Shown: piece after piece, positions 54,374-60,646 of the stretch | Numbering within the stretch: the first letter of the stretch is position 1 | Layout of the letters: every line of letters begins with the position of its first letter | NCBI RefSeq assembly: GCF_040529335.1 | Contig: NZ_CP159534.1 | Span: forward strand, 6,758,001 to 6,822,000 | Length of the DNA stretch: 64,000 bases | Source: Streptomyces sp. HUAS MG91 | GTDB lineage: Bacteria > Actinomycetota > Actinomycetes > Streptomycetales > Streptomycetaceae | Reading direction: 5' to 3' | Made by a program: the position numbers and the translations under genes | Notes under the pieces: generated by a model | The model's input: the letters and a program-made list of their open reading frames with translations, nothing else | What the model was told of the DNA's origin: nothing | Databases searched by the model: none

Positions 54374-55831
54374 TCAGTCCTCGCGCAGGGCGCGGACCGC
54401 CTCCTCCACGCGCTTGCCGTAGTCGGCGTCGGCGGCGTGGAAGTGGGCGAGGTTCTTCTCCACGATGTCGTCGTTCGAGACCTGGGAGAGCCCGCCGGCG
54501 ATGTTCGCCACCAGGCGTCCCTTCTCGTCCTCCGACATCAGGCGGTACAGCTCGCCCGCCTGGAAGAAGTCGTCGTCCTTGGTGTGGGCCGGGGCCTCGT
54601 GCGTGCCCGTGTACCCGGCGACGGCGTACGGCGCGGCCAGCGGGCGGCCGGTCTCGACGGGGCCGTCGAAGGAGTTCGGCTCGTAGTTCTTGCGGGCGCG
54701 GCCGTAGGCGTTGGTCGCCATCAGGCCGTCGCGGCCGTAGTTGTCCGCCTCGGTCGCCTTCGGCGCGTTGACCGGCAGCTGGGTGTGGTTGACGCCCAGG
54801 CGGTAGCGGTGCGCGTCCGCGTAGGCGAACAGCCGGCCCTGGAGCATCTTGTCCGGGGAGGGACCGATGCCGGGCACGAAGTTGTTCGGGGAGAACGCGG
54901 CCTGCTCGACCTCGGCGAAGACGTTGTCCGGGTTGCGGTCGAGGACCAGGCGGCCCACGCGCTGGAGCGGGTAGTCCTTGTGCGGCCACACCTTGGTGAG
55001 GTCGAAGGGGTTGAAGCGGTAGTCCGCCGCCTCGGCCGCGGGCATGATCTGCACGTAGAGCGTCCAGGACGGGTGCACACCGCGCTCGATGGCCTGGAGC
55101 AGGTCCGTCTGGTGCGAGTTGGCGTCCTTGCCGACGATCTCCTGGGCCTGCTCGGCGGAGAGCGAGCGGATGCCCTGGTTCGTCTTGAAGTGGTACTTCA
55201 CGAAGAAGGCTTCGCCCTGCTCGTTCGTCCACTGGTAGGTGTGCGAGCCGTAGCCGTTCATGTGCCGGTACGAGGCCGGGATGCCGCGGTCGCCCATCAG
55301 CCAGGTCACCTGGTGCGTGGCCTCGGGGGCGTGCGCCCAGAAGTCCCAGACGTTCTCCGGCTCCTGCTTGCCCGTGAACGGGTCGCGCTTCTGGGAGTGG
55401 ATGAAGTCGGGGAACTTCAGCGGGTCCTTGATGAAGAACACCGGGGTGTTGTTGCCGACGAGGTCGTAGTTGCCCTCTTCGGTGTAGAACTTCAGGGCGA
55501 AGCCGCGCGGGTCGCGGACGGCGTCCGCGCCGCCGAGGTTGTCGGCGACGGTCGAGAAGCGCAGGAAGACCTCGGTGCGCTTGCCGATCGTGTTCAGGAA
55601 GTCCGCGTGGGTGAAGCCGGTGACGTCGTCGGTCACCTCGAAGTGGCCGTAGGCGCCGGAGCCGCGGGCGTGCACCACGCGCTCCGGGATGCGCTCGCGG
55701 TTGAAGCGGGCGAGCTTCTCCAGGAGGTGCTGGTCCTGGAGCAGGATCGGGCCGCCGACGCCTGCGGTGGCGGAGTTCTGGTTGTCGGCGACTGGGGCGC
55801 CGGACTCGGTCGTGAGCACACGCTTCGGCAT
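54374..55831 (-). CDS. katA: Small-subunit monofunctional haem catalase
   Basis: 485 residues, clade 3 length. Catalytic His in '[20 protein letters not shown]', Asn in '[14 protein letters not shown]', and the proximal haem ligand Tyr in '[17 protein letters not shown]' are present. It destroys hydrogen peroxide. Upstream are two TCAACA-N3-TGTTGA palindromes identical in consensus to the one before the uricase operon, so its expression is likely linked to urate oxidation. No Fur-type catR gene is adjacent, contrary to some streptomycete catalase loci. Confidence 0.95.
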
Positions 55832-55912
55832 TGTTTCGAGGCGACCTTCCGTGCAATGGCTGCTGACGATGGCTGCGATGTGGGGGAGCGTAGGTACCCC
55901 TGAACTGCTACG

Positions 55913-55961
55913 TCAACAGTTTGTTGAAGTTATCGACGGAGCTTGTTCAACATTTTGTTGA
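55913..55961. promoter_or_regulatory. Two TCAACA-N3-TGTTGA palindromes upstream of katA
   Basis: Sites TCAACAGTTTGTTGA (55913-55927) and TCAACATTTTGTTGA (55947-55961); the second extends to a 19-bp perfect palindrome (55945-55963). They lie 82-130 bases upstream of katA. The same consensus occurs at 58713-58727 in front of the uricase operon. Confidence 0.75.
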
Positions 55962-55979
55962 ACAGTTGAGCATGCAGGG

Positions 55980-56041
55980 TTCCGGGCCGCGGCGACGCCT
56001 GGGCGCGACAGGACAGGTGTCAGCGCCGCCACGGCCCGGAA
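55980..56041 (-). terminator. Hairpin after the tartronate semialdehyde reductase gene
   Basis: 10-bp arms TTCCGGGCCG (55980-55989) and CGGCCCGGAA (56032-56041), with further inner pairing, located directly beyond the minus-strand stop at 56052. Confidence 0.6.
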
Positions 56042-56051
56042 GTCTTGGGGG

Positions 56052-56948
56052 TCAGGCCACCTGGTTGCCGGAGAGGCGCTCGACGGCGCGCAGCAGGGCG
56101 GAGTGGTCGAGGCCGCCGTCACCCTGGGCGCGCAGCGAGGCGACCAGCTGGGCGACCACGGCGCCGACCGGCAGGGCCGCGCCGACATTGCGGGCGGCGT
56201 CGGTGACGATGCCCATGTCCTTGTGGTGCAGGTCGATGCGGAAGCCCGGCTTGAAATCCCGGTTGAGGAAGTTGTCCTTCTTGCGGGTCAGCACGGTGGA
56301 GCCGGCGAGCCCGCCGTTGAGGACGTCGAGCGCGGCCGTCAGGTCCACGCCGGACTTCTCCAGGAAGACCACGGCCTCGGCGCACGCCTGGATGTTCACG
56401 GCGACGATCAGCTGGTTGGCGGCCTTCACGGTCTGGCCCGAGCCGTGCGGACCGCACAGCACGATGGTCTTGCCGAGGGCGTCCAGGAGCGGCTTCGCCT
56501 CGTCGAAGTCGGCCTGCTCGCCGCCGACCATGATGGACAGCACGGCCTCGATGGCGCCGGCCTCGCCGCCGGAGACGGGCGCGTCGATGACGCGGATGCC
56601 CTTCTCCTTGGCGTTCTTCGCCAGGTCGACCGAGGTCTGCGGGGTGATCGACGACATGTCGACGATCAGCGCGCCCGACCGCGCGTTCTCCAGGATGCCC
56701 TCGGGACCGTAGGCGATCGCCTCGACCTGCGGGGAGGCCGGGACCATGGTGACGATGACGTCGGCGTCCTTGACGGCCTCGGCGATCGACTTCACGGCCG
56801 TGCCGCCGGCCGCGGCGAGCCGGTCCAGCTTGTCCTGCTCCAGGGTGAAGCCCGTGACGTCGTAACCGGCCTTGATCAGGTTCTCCGACATGGGCGAACC
56901 CATGATGCCGAGACCGATCCACGCGACCTTGGGGAGGTTGTTGCTCAT
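56052..56948 (-). CDS. glxR: 2-hydroxy-3-oxopropionate (tartronate semialdehyde) reductase
   Basis: 298 residues of the beta-hydroxyacid dehydrogenase family. Rossmann 'IGLGIMGSPMSENL', 'DAPVSGGEAGA' substrate loop, catalytic Lys in 'GQTVKAANQ', and 'KDMGIVTDAA'. It reduces tartronate semialdehyde, the Gcl product, to D-glycerate with NAD(P)H. It lies 84 bases after hyi in the same direction, likely one operon. Confidence 0.92.
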   Translation of the reverse strand: MSNNLPKVAWIGLGIMGSPMSENLIKAGYDVTGFTLEQDKLDRLAAAGGTAVKSIAEAVKDADVIVTMVPASPQVEAIAYGPEGILENARSGALIVDMSSITPQTSVDLAKNAKEKGIRVIDAPVSGGEAGAIEAVLSIMVGGEQADFDEAKPLLDALGKTIVLCGPHGSGQTVKAANQLIVAVNIQACAEAVVFLEKSGVDLTAALDVLNGGLAGSTVLTRKKDNFLNRDFKPGFRIDLHHKDMGIVTDAARNVGAALPVGAVVAQLVASLRAQGDGGLDHSALLRAVERLSGNQVA

Positions 56949-57032
56949 GAGGGTGACACTCCAAAGGCTCTGAAAACGGTGATACGCCGATGAGTCGGCT
57001 GAGTCGGCTGAGTTGGCGCGGCCGGCGGGCGC

Positions 57033-57869
57033 TCAGGCCGCGCGGTGCTCGCGCGGGAGCCAGTCGAAGGCCTCGGCGCTCGGGCGGTCGCCCGGCTTGT
57101 ACTCCAGGCCGACATAGCCCTCGTAGCCGGCCTTCTTCAGCTGGTCGAGCAGCTCCTCGAGGGGCAGCGAGCCGGTGCCCGGCGCGCCGCGGCCCGGGTT
57201 GTCGGCGATCTGCACGTGGGCCGTCTTGTCGGCGTAGGCGCCGATGACCTGCGGCAGGTCCTCGCCGTTCATCGACAGGTGGTACAGGTCCATCAGGAAC
57301 TTGGCGTTGCCGAGGCCGGTCGCCGCGTTCACCTCGTCCACGATCTCGATCGCCTTGGGGGCGCTCACGATCGGGCACTTCGGCGACTCCGGCGCGTTGA
57401 GCGCCTCGATGAGGAGCACGGCGCCGACGCGGTCGGCCGCGCGGGCCGCGAGCACCAGGTTCTCCAGCGCGAGCGCGTCCTGCGCCGCCGGGTCCACGCC
57501 GTCCATGCGGTTGCCGTAGAGGGCGTTGAGCGCCTTGCAGCCGAGGGACTGCGCGAAGTCGGCCGCGATGTCGATGTTCGCGCGGAACTTGTCGCTCTCC
57601 TCGCCGGGGATCGACAGGGCGCCCCGGTCGGGGCCCGGCAGCTGGCCCGCGTAGAAGTTCAGGCCGGTCAGCTGGACGCCGGCCTCCGTGATCGCGGTGC
57701 GCAGGGCGTCGAGCTCCGACTGCGCGGGAGTGGGGGCGTCGACCCAGGGCCACCACAGCTCGACCGCGGTGAAGCCCGCCGCGGCGGCGGCCGCGGGACG
57801 CTCCAGGAGCGGGAGTTCCGTGAAGAGGATCGACAGGTTGACGTTGAAGCGCTGGTCTGCGAATCCCAT
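57033..57869 (-). CDS. hyi: Hydroxypyruvate isomerase (TIM barrel)
   Basis: 278 residues of the xylose-isomerase-like TIM barrel family. 'FNVNLSILFTELPLLERPAAAAAAGF' opens the barrel; metal/catalytic residues include Glu in 'LLIEALN' and 'GLEYKPG', and 'FLMDLYHLSMNGED', 'HVQIADNPGRGAPGTG'. Hyi interconverts hydroxypyruvate and tartronate semialdehyde. The operator 57897-57932 lies 28 bases before its ATG 57869. With glxR and gcl it completes the glycerate pathway. Confidence 0.92.
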   Translation of the reverse strand: MGFADQRFNVNLSILFTELPLLERPAAAAAAGFTAVELWWPWVDAPTPAQSELDALRTAITEAGVQLTGLNFYAGQLPGPDRGALSIPGEESDKFRANIDIAADFAQSLGCKALNALYGNRMDGVDPAAQDALALENLVLAARAADRVGAVLLIEALNAPESPKCPIVSAPKAIEIVDEVNAATGLGNAKFLMDLYHLSMNGEDLPQVIGAYADKTAHVQIADNPGRGAPGTGSLPLEELLDQLKKAGYEGYVGLEYKPGDRPSAEAFDWLPREHRAA

Positions 57870-57896
57870 GGGGGTCGGCGCTCCCTTCCGTAGTTA

Positions 57897-57932
57897 TTCC
57901 GTATTGCGGAAGTTCGTTTCTGCTTGATGGAA
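57897..57932. promoter_or_regulatory. Mirror-image operator upstream of hyi
   Basis: TTCCGTATTGCGGAA (57897-57911, near-perfect palindrome) and TTCTGCTTGATGGAA (57918-57932), 21 bp apart. Reverse-complemented, the pair matches the gcl operator at 51512-51547 in sequence, order and spacing. IclR-family AllR is the known regulator of such genes in S. coelicolor, but whether these sites are AllR boxes was not checked. Confidence 0.7.
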
Positions 57933-58004
57933 GACTGCCTGCGGGGTGCGGTGGCTGTCAAGAGGGGCTGCCGGAAAAACCGCCGACGGCGTTAGGTTGA
58001 GCGC

Positions 58005-58268
58005 GTGCGATTGAGAGTGGAGTTCACGACCGAGCCCTTCGACCTCGACGAGGCGCCGCCGCACGCGGTGGTCGCCCGGGACGTCCTGGAGGGGGCCGAC
58101 CTGGACGCGGTGGACGTCGGCCCGTTCGGCAACACCGCCGAGGGGGAGTCCGACGGCGTGCTGACCGCCGTCGACGCGCTGCTGCGCAAGGCGCTCGCCG
58201 CCGGGGCCACCCGGGTCTCGCTCCAGGTGAATGTGATCGGCGACGAGCCCGGGGAGGGCGATAAGTGA
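58005..58268 (+). CDS. MTH1187/YkoF-like small protein (DUF77-type, tentative)
   Basis: 87 residues. 'VDVGPFGNTAEGESDGVLTAVDALLRKAL' and the closing strand 'RVSLQVNVIG' match the pattern of thiamine-binding MTH1187/YkoF-fold proteins ('GP.GT..EG...ev'). Such proteins bind small ligands; no catalysis is expected. GTG 58005. Its stop overlaps the next GTG by four bases, so it is coupled to the HTH gene. The family call is moderate. Confidence 0.6.
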   Translation: MRLRVEFTTEPFDLDEAPPHAVVARDVLEGADLDAVDVGPFGNTAEGESDGVLTAVDALLRKALAAGATRVSLQVNVIGDEPGEGDK

Positions 58269-58642
58269 CCGGTCCCGCTGACGATGCCGCCGACCCCTTC
58301 GTCCGGGCGGTCAAGCCGCTCGTCGACGCCATGGGGGGCGAGATGATGCCGCCGCAGGCGGCAGGCAAGGACGACGTCGTGCTGAGCTGGGAGGGCGTGG
58401 ACGTGCTGGCCGTCCGGCTGCCCCAGCTGGCCGACTCCCTCGATCACATCCTGGCCGCCATGGAACGCAAGCGGGGCAGGCCGCTGGCCGACCTCGACCG
58501 CAAGGAGAAGCAGGAGGTCGTGCGCGTGCTCGAGGCGCGCGGCGCGTTCTCCGTGCGGCACGGGGTGGAGACCGTGGCCGGCGCCCTCGGTGTCTCGCGC
58601 TTCACCGTGTACAACTACCTCAATCGCGAGAAGGCCACCTGA
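58265..58642 (+). CDS. Helix-turn-helix protein, candidate local regulator
   Basis: 125 residues. A small N-domain ('VVLSWEGVDVLAVRLPQL') leads to a C-terminal Fis-like HTH 'GVETVAGALGVSRFTVYNYLNRE' (about 97-119). It starts at GTG 58265, overlapping the MTH1187-like gene, and is followed at once by an intrinsic terminator before the uricase operon. Homologous genes are frequent next to streptomycete purine-degradation genes. It could sense a purine or its ligand-binding partner and act on the TCAACA palindromes, but that link is inference. Confidence 0.7.
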   Translation: MTGPADDAADPFVRAVKPLVDAMGGEMMPPQAAGKDDVVLSWEGVDVLAVRLPQLADSLDHILAAMERKRGRPLADLDRKEKQEVVRVLEARGAFSVRHGVETVAGALGVSRFTVYNYLNREKAT

Positions 58643-58666
58643 CCTGCACGGATTCTCCGCTTCCCG

Positions 58667-58698
58667 AACCGCCGTCCGACTATCGGACGGCGGTTTTT
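58667..58698 (+). terminator. Rho-independent terminator
   Basis: 13-bp arms (58667-58679, 58683-58695), three-base loop, followed by five T (58694-58698). It separates the HTH gene from the uricase operon. Confidence 0.92.
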
Positions 58699-58712
58699 GT
58701 AACTCCAAGTTT

Positions 58713-58727
58713 TCAACAAAGTGTTGA
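58713..58727. promoter_or_regulatory. TCAACA-N3-TGTTGA operator of the uricase operon
   Basis: TCAACAAAGTGTTGA, 65 bases before the uraD start and same consensus as the two sites upstream of katA. It includes TGTTGAC, part of a possible -35 element (TTGACG at 58724), so binding could repress transcription. Confidence 0.72.
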
Positions 58728-58791
58728 CGCGGTGTTTCCGAGGGCGTTAGCTATCCGCAGCCCGTCCAGCACAAGGCCACGGAGGCATCCC

Positions 58792-59307
58792 GTGACTTCA
58801 GGTACCACGCCGGGACTGACCCGGTTCAACGCCTCGGACGAGAGCGCGGCCCAGGCCGAGCTCCACGAGGTGTGTGCTTCATCGGCGTGGGGGAGCAAGC
58901 TGCTCGCCCAGCGTCCCTTCGCCACCGTAGAGGCCCTCTTCGAGGCCAGCGACGCCGCGACGGCCGAGCTGACCGCCGACGACCTCGCCGAGGCGATGGC
59001 GGGGCACCCGCCGATCGGCCGCCCGAAGCCCGGCGACCCGACCTCCTCGCGCGAGCAGCGCGGCATGGCCGGGGCCTCCGAGGAGCTCAAGGCGGAGATG
59101 CTCGAACTGAACCTGGCCTACCAGGACCGGTTCGGACATGTCTTCCTCATCTGCGCCACCGGAGCCACCGGCGAGCAGATGCTCGAGGCGCTCAAGGCGC
59201 GCATCGCGAACACGCCCGACCAGGAGCGGGCGATCGTCCGCACCGAACTGGGCAAGATCAACCGCATCCGCCTCACCCGCCTCGCAGAAGAAGGGGACAA
59301 CACCTGA
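58792..59307 (+). CDS. uraD: 2-oxo-4-hydroxy-4-carboxy-5-ureidoimidazoline (OHCU) decarboxylase
   Basis: 171 residues from GTG 58792, which has GGAGG eight bases ahead; an upstream in-frame start (58732) lacks one. Family motifs: 'LTRFNASDESAAQAEL', 'HPPIGRPKPGD' with the catalytic His, 'SREQRGM' and 'FGHVFLICATGATGEQML'. It decarboxylates OHCU to S-allantoin, last step of urate oxidation. Its TGA overlaps the next ATG. Confidence 0.93.
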   Translation: MTSGTTPGLTRFNASDESAAQAELHEVCASSAWGSKLLAQRPFATVEALFEASDAATAELTADDLAEAMAGHPPIGRPKPGDPTSSREQRGMAGASEELKAEMLELNLAYQDRFGHVFLICATGATGEQMLEALKARIANTPDQERAIVRTELGKINRIRLTRLAEEGDNT

Positions 59308-59705
59308 TGAGCACCGAGACCACGGCGTCGGTGTCCACGCACATCCTGGACACCAGCATCGGACGCCCCGCCGAGGGCGTCGCCATCTCCCTTGCGGCAC
59401 GCGCCGGTTCGGGCGCCGCCTGGGTGGCGCTCGGCGGTTCGGCCACCGACGCGGACGGGCGCTGCAAGGACCTTCCGGCCCTGCCGGAGGGCACCACTCA
59501 CGTCCGACTCGACTTCGAGACGGAAGAGTATTTCGACAAGAAGCAAGCCGATGCGCAGCAGGACGCCCCCGCGAATCGGGACAGCGGTGCGACCGGAGCG
59601 TTCTTCCCGGAGGTGGCGATCACGTTCGCCGTCGTGCCGGGCGAGCACTACCACGTACCGCTGCTGCTCAACCCGTTCGGCTACTCCGTTTACCGAGGGA
59701 GCTAG
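59307..59705 (+). CDS. uraH: 5-hydroxyisourate hydrolase (transthyretin-like)
   Basis: 132 residues. HIUase signatures: N-terminal 'VSTHILDTSIGRPAEGV' with the catalytic His, 'DADGRCKDL', 'FFPEV' and the C-terminal 'YHVPLLLNPFGYSVYRGS' with the diagnostic Tyr-Arg-Gly-Ser end. It hydrolyses 5-hydroxyisourate from uricase to OHCU for UraD. Overlaps uraD by one base and precedes uricase by five. Confidence 0.95.
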   Translation: MSTETTASVSTHILDTSIGRPAEGVAISLAARAGSGAAWVALGGSATDADGRCKDLPALPEGTTHVRLDFETEEYFDKKQADAQQDAPANRDSGATGAFFPEVAITFAVVPGEHYHVPLLLNPFGYSVYRGS

Positions 59706-59710
59706 CAGAC

Positions 59711-60646
59711 ATGCCCACGATCCTGGGACAGAACCAGTACGGCAAGGCCGAGAACCGAGTCGTAAAGATCACGCGGGACGGCGACACTCACCACATCAAG
59801 GACCTGAACGTCTCGGTCGCCCTCAGCGGTGACCTCTCCGACGTCCACCTCACCGGGTCGAACGCCAACTGCCTGCCGACCGACACCACCAAGAACACCT
59901 GCTTCGCCTTCGCCAAGGAACACGGCATCGAGTCGGCCGAGCAGTACGGCATCGAGCTGGCCCGGCACTTCGTCGACAGCCAGCCGTCCATCCACCGGTC
60001 GCGCATCCGCATCGAGGAGTACTCCTGGGAGCGCATCGCCGGCTCCGACGCGGGCTCCAACTTCATCGGTGCCGACGAGGTCCAGCACTCCTTCGTCCGC
60101 AAGGGCCAGGAAGTGCGGCTGGTCCAGGTCACCTATGACGGCGAGAAGTTCGAGGTGCTGTCCGGTCTCAAGGACCTGACCGTCATGAACACCACGAACT
60201 CCGAGTTCTGGGGCTACATCAAGGACAAGTACACGACGCTCCAGGAGGACTACGACCGCATCCTCGCCACGTCGCTGTCGACCTGGTGGCGCCACAACTG
60301 GACGGGCACCGAGGGTGAGCGCACGCCTCAGTGGAACAAGTCCTACGAGCAGGCCAAGAAGCACATCCTCCAGGCCTTCGTCGAGACGTACTCGCTGTCG
60401 CTGCAGCAGACCCTCTTCCAGATGGGTTCGCGCGTCATCAACAACCGCGGCGAGATCGACGAGATCCGCTTCTCCGCGCCGAACAAGCACCACTTCCGCC
60501 AGGACCTCTCGGCCTTCGGCCTGGAGAACGACGCGAAGGACGGGGCCGTCTACTGGGCCGCCGACCGTCCCTACGGCCTGATCGAGGCCACCATCCTGCG
60601 GGACGGCGCCGAGCAGCGCATCCCGACCGACATGACCAACCTCTGA
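59711..60646 (+). CDS. uox: Urate oxidase (uricase)
   Basis: 311 residues. Two tandem T-fold halves. Active-site elements include 'GKAENRVVKITRDG' (catalytic Lys), 'TDTTKNTCF' (Thr/Lys dyad), 'QVTYDGEKFEVLSGLKDLTVMNTTNSEF' and 'IDEIRFSAPNKHHF'. It oxidises urate with O2, giving 5-hydroxyisourate and H2O2. Third gene of the uraD-uraH-uox operon, tightly spaced. The peroxide it makes explains why a katA with the same operator is close by. Confidence 0.95.
   Translation: MPTILGQNQYGKAENRVVKITRDGDTHHIKDLNVSVALSGDLSDVHLTGSNANCLPTDTTKNTCFAFAKEHGIESAEQYGIELARHFVDSQPSIHRSRIRIEEYSWERIAGSDAGSNFIGADEVQHSFVRKGQEVRLVQVTYDGEKFEVLSGLKDLTVMNTTNSEFWGYIKDKYTTLQEDYDRILATSLSTWWRHNWTGTEGERTPQWNKSYEQAKKHILQAFVETYSLSLQQTLFQMGSRVINNRGEIDEIRFSAPNKHHFRQDLSAFGLENDAKDGAVYWAADRPYGLIEATILRDGAEQRIPTDMTNL

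Follow-up and report, generated by a model that had tools for sequence, protein, structure and literature searches.

The 64,000-nucleotide stretch of Streptomyces sp. HUAS MG91 analyzed here (contig NZ_CP159534.1, positions 6,758,001 to 6,822,000; hereafter, the window) carries the catalase gene katA on its minus strand and the uricase operon uraD-uraH-uox on its plus strand (Table 1). Two small genes, followed by a terminator-like hairpin, are located upstream of uraD, with the start of the second (58265) overlapping the stop of the first (58268). They encode a protein resembling the Thiamine_BP family and a helix-turn-helix (HTH) protein of the HTH_22 family. This report concerns a palindrome, TCAACA-N3-TGTTGA, that precedes both katA and the uricase operon, and its proposed relationship to this pair of proteins.

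Table 1. Features of the katA-uox region, in coordinates of the window (bp, base pairs).
Feature	Coordinates	Strand	Evidence and remarks
katA, catalase, proposed target	54374..55831	-	Pfam Catalase, 630.7 bits
Predicted -10 box of katA, TACGCT	55887-55892	-	Promoter prediction; spacer 18
Predicted -35 box of katA, TTGACG	55911-55916	-	Promoter prediction
Proximal katA operator	55913..55927	-	Exact match; minus-strand read TCAACAAACTGTTGA, running on into TTGACG
Distal katA operator	55947..55961	-	Exact match; 34 bp upstream of the proximal katA operator
Thiamine_BP-like protein, 87 amino acids, proposed ligand-sensing subunit	58005..58268	+	Pfam PF01910, 21.6 bits, short of the 24.9 cut-off
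HTH_22 protein, 125 amino acids, proposed DNA-binding subunit	58265..58642	+	Pfam PF13309, 75.5 bits against a gathering score of 29.6
Terminator-like hairpin and T-run, separating the HTH gene from the uraD promoter	58669..58699	+	Sequence reading
uraD-uraH-uox operator	58713..58727	+	Exact match; right half overlaps predicted -35 box TTGACG (58724-58729)
Predicted -10 box of uraD, TTAGCT/TAGCTA	58747-58753	+	Promoter prediction
uraD, OHCU decarboxylase, first gene of the proposed target operon	58792..59307	+	Pfam OHCU_decarbox, 144.3 bits
uraH, hydroxyisourate hydrolase	59307..59705	+	Pfam Transthyretin, 111 bits
uox, uricase	59711..60646	+	Pfam Uricase, 190.4 bits

The palindrome has three exact copies in the entire 8,616,192-base genome, where a first-order Markov estimate predicts 0.05. 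Two precede katA and one precedes uraD-uraH-uox. A preliminary description of this DNA had reported these copies as an operator common to the two transcription units; all three are exact and lie where it placed them. They are also the only sites in the window at two or fewer mismatches, for which shuffled sequences lead one to expect 0.52 and reach three in 2 of 100 shuffles. With at most one mismatch allowed, the palindrome matches 17 places in the genome, compared to 3 for a reversed control pattern. The distal katA copy is embedded in a longer palindrome, TGTTCAACA-N3-TGTTGAACA.

Sharing of the operator extends well beyond this strain. A scan of named genomes yielded at least 568 uricase relatives, and the best 80 of the 568, all from Streptomyces, were used for comparison; katA is contained in 57 of these loci, to which all katA counts refer. 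The exact palindrome lies upstream of uraD in 80/80 loci and upstream of katA in 57/57. The preliminary description had held that its operator would fall if the palindromes were not conserved at both promoters in other Streptomyces; they are kept at both, and its reading as a shared operator is supported. The spacer triplet at uraD sites is AAG in 55 loci, AAC in 24 and GAC in 1, while katA sites have AAC in 55, AAG in 1 and GAC in 1. Only 5 of the 57 katA promoters have two sites, which places the window's tandem arrangement in the minority. A search of 150 genomes of the same genus, which covered the double site only, found closely spaced copies in three, the window's own genome included.

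At both promoters, the right half-site extends to TGTTGAC, so that a good -35 box results, which in the window reads TTGACG. When the best -10 box is picked mechanically at spacings of 16 to 19, uraD promoters have TAGCTA or TAGCTG in 75 of 80 cases (spacer 18 in 69, 19 in 11), and katA promoters have TACGCT or TAGGCT in all 57 (spacer 18 in 42, 17 in 15). The uox and uraD promoters of other families have a similar layout by eye, for example TTGACG, 17 bp, TACTTT at locus L188. Because its right half overlaps the predicted -35 box at both promoters, the operator looks like a repressor site. A dimer on the palindrome would cover the -35 box, which, judged from layout, looks like the usual geometry of repression. 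It is unlikely that the protein pair instead binds here as an activator of the uricase and catalase promoters. Some activators do bind over or beside the -35 region, but the half-site merges with a near-consensus TTGACG that is separated from a -10-like box by 17-19 bp in Streptomyces, and a 17 bp spacing is seen by eye in L122, L188, L189 and L190. With such a -35 box properly spaced from a -10-like box, these promoters look able to fire unaided.

Some Streptomyces katA promoters carry a second palindrome, CGGAA-N3..7-TTCCG, on the 3' side of the operator. It is present in 30 of the 57 katA promoters (among L016-L095) and 0 of the 80 uraD promoters, and is also seen by eye at the uraD promoters of L142, L144 and L145. 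This element, absent from the katA promoter of the window, is possibly a second operator of IclR-like type. At L082:5850, an operator-like site occupies the place expected for katA, where a katA match was not found. One further record, plasmid p3 of Streptomyces angustmyceticus (L211, NZ_CP104320.1, 27 kilobases (kb)), contains the entire module with both operators: katA, glyoxylate genes, the protein pair, uraD-uraH-pucL, a permease and a deaminase. It was deposited as a circular plasmid and is either mobile or an assembly fragment.

The overlapping gene pair accompanies the operator across several lineages. Both genes were found in 78 of the 80 Streptomyces loci, and in the other two (L041, L056) the contig starts about 200 bases before uraD, too near to show them. 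In a sample of the class comprising 118 genomes, 44 of which have uricase, an exact site lies beside uox in 9/9 uricase genomes with the pair, namely G195 and eight Streptomyces that are not mutually independent. It lies beside uox in 0/35 uricase genomes without the pair, four of which (G151, G166, G167, G198) have an exact motif on a contig other than that of uox. Family f33 gives the same picture. Of its 59 genomes, 21 have uricase and six carry the pair beside purine genes; the exact motif precedes uox or uraD in 6/6 of these and in 0/15 of the uricase genomes without the pair. Among these 15, G269, G275 and G286 have a motif far from uox or on another contig, and G314 has an HTH_22 relative with no partner. 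Over the alignment, the f33 HTH proteins share 38-48% identity with that of the window, and f33 has a rearranged operon.

A search of 394 genomes of the class with an alignment of the putative sensor proteins identified strong matches in three additional families (G508, G551, G562). Each of these genomes has one exact motif, and it is sited between the pair and uraD. The pair recurs in four families beyond that of Streptomyces; four of these loci encode it as a single fused protein. On a plasmid of Tsukamurella tyrosinosolvens, the pair (annotated as a thiamine-binding protein and a helix-turn-helix protein) is divergent from uraD-uraH-pucL with an exact motif between them, which is the only site at two or fewer mismatches in a 14-kb stretch. 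Where pair and uraD are separated by 13 kb (L128) or 4 kb (L062), the motif stays with uraD; the site tracks the target promoter and not the regulator gene.

In a set of 35 genomes, 32 have the pair, and in 27 of the 32 the sites listed include one beside uox; the other five (G378, G421, G457, G572 and G579) are left out of that count. G395 and G473 have neither a strong match to the pair nor uricase. The Streptomyces genome G350 retains uricase but only a 33-residue remnant of the sensor gene, and no HTH match adjoins this remnant. No site at one or fewer mismatches occurs in the uox region of G350, and the sole exact site of this genome, elsewhere, is the common GCC-spacer form. This case is consistent with a link between pair and operator without being independent support, since one deletion could have taken gene and site together. 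Four Streptomyces genomes (G340, G489, G526, G572) have second uricase copies, 60-62% identical to the window's, that have no site nearby and are presumably under other control.

The co-occurrence strongly favors the HTH protein at 58265-58642, which the preliminary description had named as a candidate regulator and which Pfam assigns to HTH_22. That description had also suggested MarR- or Fur-type candidates. A neighboring regulator of either type was rejected, as Pfam matches only HTH_22 and Thiamine_BP; neither protein of the pair in the window has a MarR match (E 0.001), a Fur match or an IclR match. The overlapping partner gene, its natural fusions and the further targets described below are additions to that account.

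Thiamine_BP-like and HTH_22 sequences occur in one open reading frame in G195, G291, G551 and G562. The fused protein of G195 (L122) exceeds both Pfam cut-offs, with 41.2 bits against 24.9 for Thiamine_BP and 65.4 against 29.6 for HTH_22. Fusion constitutes good evidence for joint action of the two proteins. A structure model of the L122 protein built from a 22-row alignment has a mean predicted local distance difference test score (pLDDT) of 87.4 and a predicted template modeling score of 0.48, so that domain orientation is not fixed; an earlier single-sequence model was poor (pLDDT 63.1). All 14 Foldseek hits of the fused model below E 0.001 are MTH1187/TM0486/DUF77-type structures, which have a ferredoxin-like fold. 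A VIA-align ranking consisted mostly of microcompartment-shell proteins, which have this fold too, and placed MTH1187 at rank 42; the family assignment rests on Foldseek and Pfam. A PDB sequence search with both proteins of the pair returned no convincing structural relative.

Operator sites are found at other genes of purine breakdown. The six f33 genomes with the pair contain 11 exact sites, of which 6 are at uox or uraD, 3 precede the xanthine dehydrogenase small-subunit gene xdhA (L123, L152, L154), 1 precedes xdhC behind a ureidoglycine aminohydrolase gene (L153) and 1 is unexplained. The identities of these neighbors rest on Pfam and NCBIfam; at L123, the xanthine dehydrogenase large subunit clears its cut-off (911.7 against 849.5) and the small subunit falls short of the one set for it (417.3 against 467). 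All three retrieved Streptomyces loci that contain the interval separating an IclR-family gene from the allantoinase gene allB have a copy there. This copy is exact in L054, whereas those of L062 and of the genome of the window (6853751) each differ at one position. In the latter genome, the IclR-family gene adjoins a confirmed allB outside the window (L207). With the xdhA, xdhC and allB sites added to those at uricase, the operator marks a purine-catabolism regulon of which katA is a part in Streptomyces.

Taken together, these patterns make it likely that TCAACA-N3-TGTTGA is the operator of a dedicated repressor of purine or urate catabolism, encoded by the overlapping pair at 58005-58642, through which uricase and catalase would be induced. 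From them we infer direct binding and repression rather than activation. The HTH_22 subunit would bind the palindrome and the Thiamine_BP-like subunit would sense a purine metabolite. In the absence of ligand, the complex would sit over the -35 boxes of uraD-uraH-uox and katA and block RNA polymerase. Urate or a related purine would release it, such that uricase and catalase rise together and the H2O2 generated by uricase is destroyed by the co-induced catalase. The list of targets suggests that the ligand is a purine intermediate. Urate is a first guess that we favor slightly, and xanthine or 5-hydroxyisourate are possible.

An alternative is that the palindrome is recognized by an unlinked regulator, from the MarR, TetR, Fur or another family, while the pair is a bystander traveling with the uricase genes. 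Pair and site are linked in most loci, most near relatives share one locus layout, and the known urate sensors are MarR proteins (PMC5487221). A bystander would, however, hardly account for the uricase genomes without the pair, none of which has the site beside uox. In genomes with the pair, moreover, the site marks xdhA genes that are 17-18 kb away (G195, G266) or on other contigs, and of the genes sought, a 3.2-kb contig of G308 contains the pair, uox, uraH and uraD alone. We therefore regard an unlinked regulator as improbable and retain the pair as the candidate repressor.

Least plausible is an operator of a peroxide-stress regulator that has uricase among its targets because uricase makes H2O2. 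In favor of this reading, katA is a target, and in S. coelicolor HbpS-SenS-SenR mediates a response of the uricase genes to oxidative stress, a SenR site being predicted at SCO6209 (PMC4991794). Against it, the predicted SenR site (CCAGCCGCCGTCCGGT) is a different sequence, the remaining targets lie at xdh genes and in the allB region with no further stress genes, and sensing of peroxide through thiols by the pair is disfavored by the absence of a conserved cysteine, the pair in the window having none and 2 of 14 other relatives examined having one.

Several observations weigh against a repressor encoded by the pair. The Thiamine_BP-like protein in the window fails the PF01910 gathering score (21.6 against 24.9 bits), which relatives in other families pass (41.2 bits in L122 and 41.9 in L190). 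No site with two or fewer mismatches precedes position 58005, and the usual autoregulation is hence not seen in the window. HTH_22 relatives outside the pair have no CAACA/TGTTG palindrome (exact halves, gap 0-8) at 10 loci representing 7 genes; the idea that the motif is common to other HTH_22 proteins was accordingly rejected, and the domain family alone is not predictive. In addition, the site mostly lies between the HTH gene and uraD, so that linkage accounts for part of the co-occurrence. The f33 contrast of 6/6 against 0/15 has a chance of 1 in 54,264 if genomes are independent, a figure that shared ancestry weakens.

The S. coelicolor genes also bear on the coupling of catalase to uricase. 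We take SCO6204 to be the katA orthologue and SCO6208 to be the orthologue of the HTH_22 gene. SCO6209-6211 correspond to hpxQ-hpxT-hpxO and are reduced under oxidative stress via HbpS-SenS-SenR (PMC4991794). That source makes no mention of SCO6204, which argues against strictly linked expression of katA and uox; the preliminary description had named unlinked expression of the two as grounds for refutation. SCO6208 has been tabulated as a putative transposase (PMC3897704).

The proposed logic has precedent in HucR/PecS-type regulation. HucR of Deinococcus radiodurans, a MarR-family protein encoded beside uricase, represses that gene from an intergenic site, and urate releases it (PMC5487221). 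The same logic is proposed for the pair. It differs in that its proteins have no MarR match and include a separate or fused Thiamine_BP-like subunit, and in that catalase shares the operator in the Streptomyces system. DauR/YheO-type proteins have the HTH_22 DNA-binding domain in common with the pair but carry PAS_6 instead of a Thiamine_BP-like partner (L125, L148), and these two loci lack purine genes and the operator. No PAS_6 match was found in the window's HTH_22 protein or in the L122 fusion.

In Streptomyces, the IclR-family protein AllR acts on allantoin and glyoxylate genes. The pathway is thus shared, and the IclR-family gene/allB gap also bears the TCAACA-N3-TGTTGA site. AllR nevertheless belongs to a different family from the pair, and the E. 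coli AllR motif KTTGGAAWAWTWTTCCAAC is unlike the operator (PMC8222616).

The putative sensor shares its fold with the thiamine- or HMP-binding proteins MTH1187, TM0486 and YkoF (PF01910), although the window's own protein, unlike those of L122 and L190, falls short of the Pfam cut-off. To our knowledge, no protein of this type has been described as part of a transcription regulator. The function of MTH1187-like members is given as unknown (PMC3779223). Literature text searches, which covered few subscription papers, found no description of the operator or of the regulator pair. The prospects that the pair founds a new regulator class are evenly balanced. Such a class would combine a Thiamine_BP-fold sensor of purine (urate) with an HTH_22 DNA-binding subunit, separate or in some lineages fused, and would govern a purine-oxidation regulon that includes a dedicated catalase in Streptomyces.

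For the breakdown of urate in Streptomyces and its relatives, these results provide a specific candidate regulator together with an operator, and they suggest that an enzyme producing peroxide shares this operator with a catalase. They also give the Thiamine_BP fold, which is little understood, a possible function in regulation. Should the ligand be urate, the pair would be a urate sensor unrelated to HucR and useful for biosensors.

Exact sites occur in a few other contexts. In G340, an operator lies just upstream of the ureABC urease genes (L193:9285), a single case; urease catalyzes the last step of nitrogen release from urate. In two Streptomyces, an operator precedes a DUF6986 (HpcH/HpaI-like) gene by between a few and about 45 bases (L129:8881 in G095, L136:1143 in G087). 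At L124:7850 (G195:C5), the motif falls within a 27-base perfect hairpin, CGGGATTCAACACTCTGTTGAATCCCG, which is situated between genes and is perhaps a terminator; its target is unexplained. Also unexplained are exact sites in G234 (L126, L127), with no query gene nearby, and in G067 (L131). Finally, an identical exact site, TCAACAGCCTGTTGA, recurs away from uox in the Streptomyces genomes G013, G067, G087, G095, G107, G330, G350, G360, G387, G395, G404, G497, G511 and G542. Two of these (G395, G350) do not have the pair, and this unexplained recurrence is possibly a coding coincidence.

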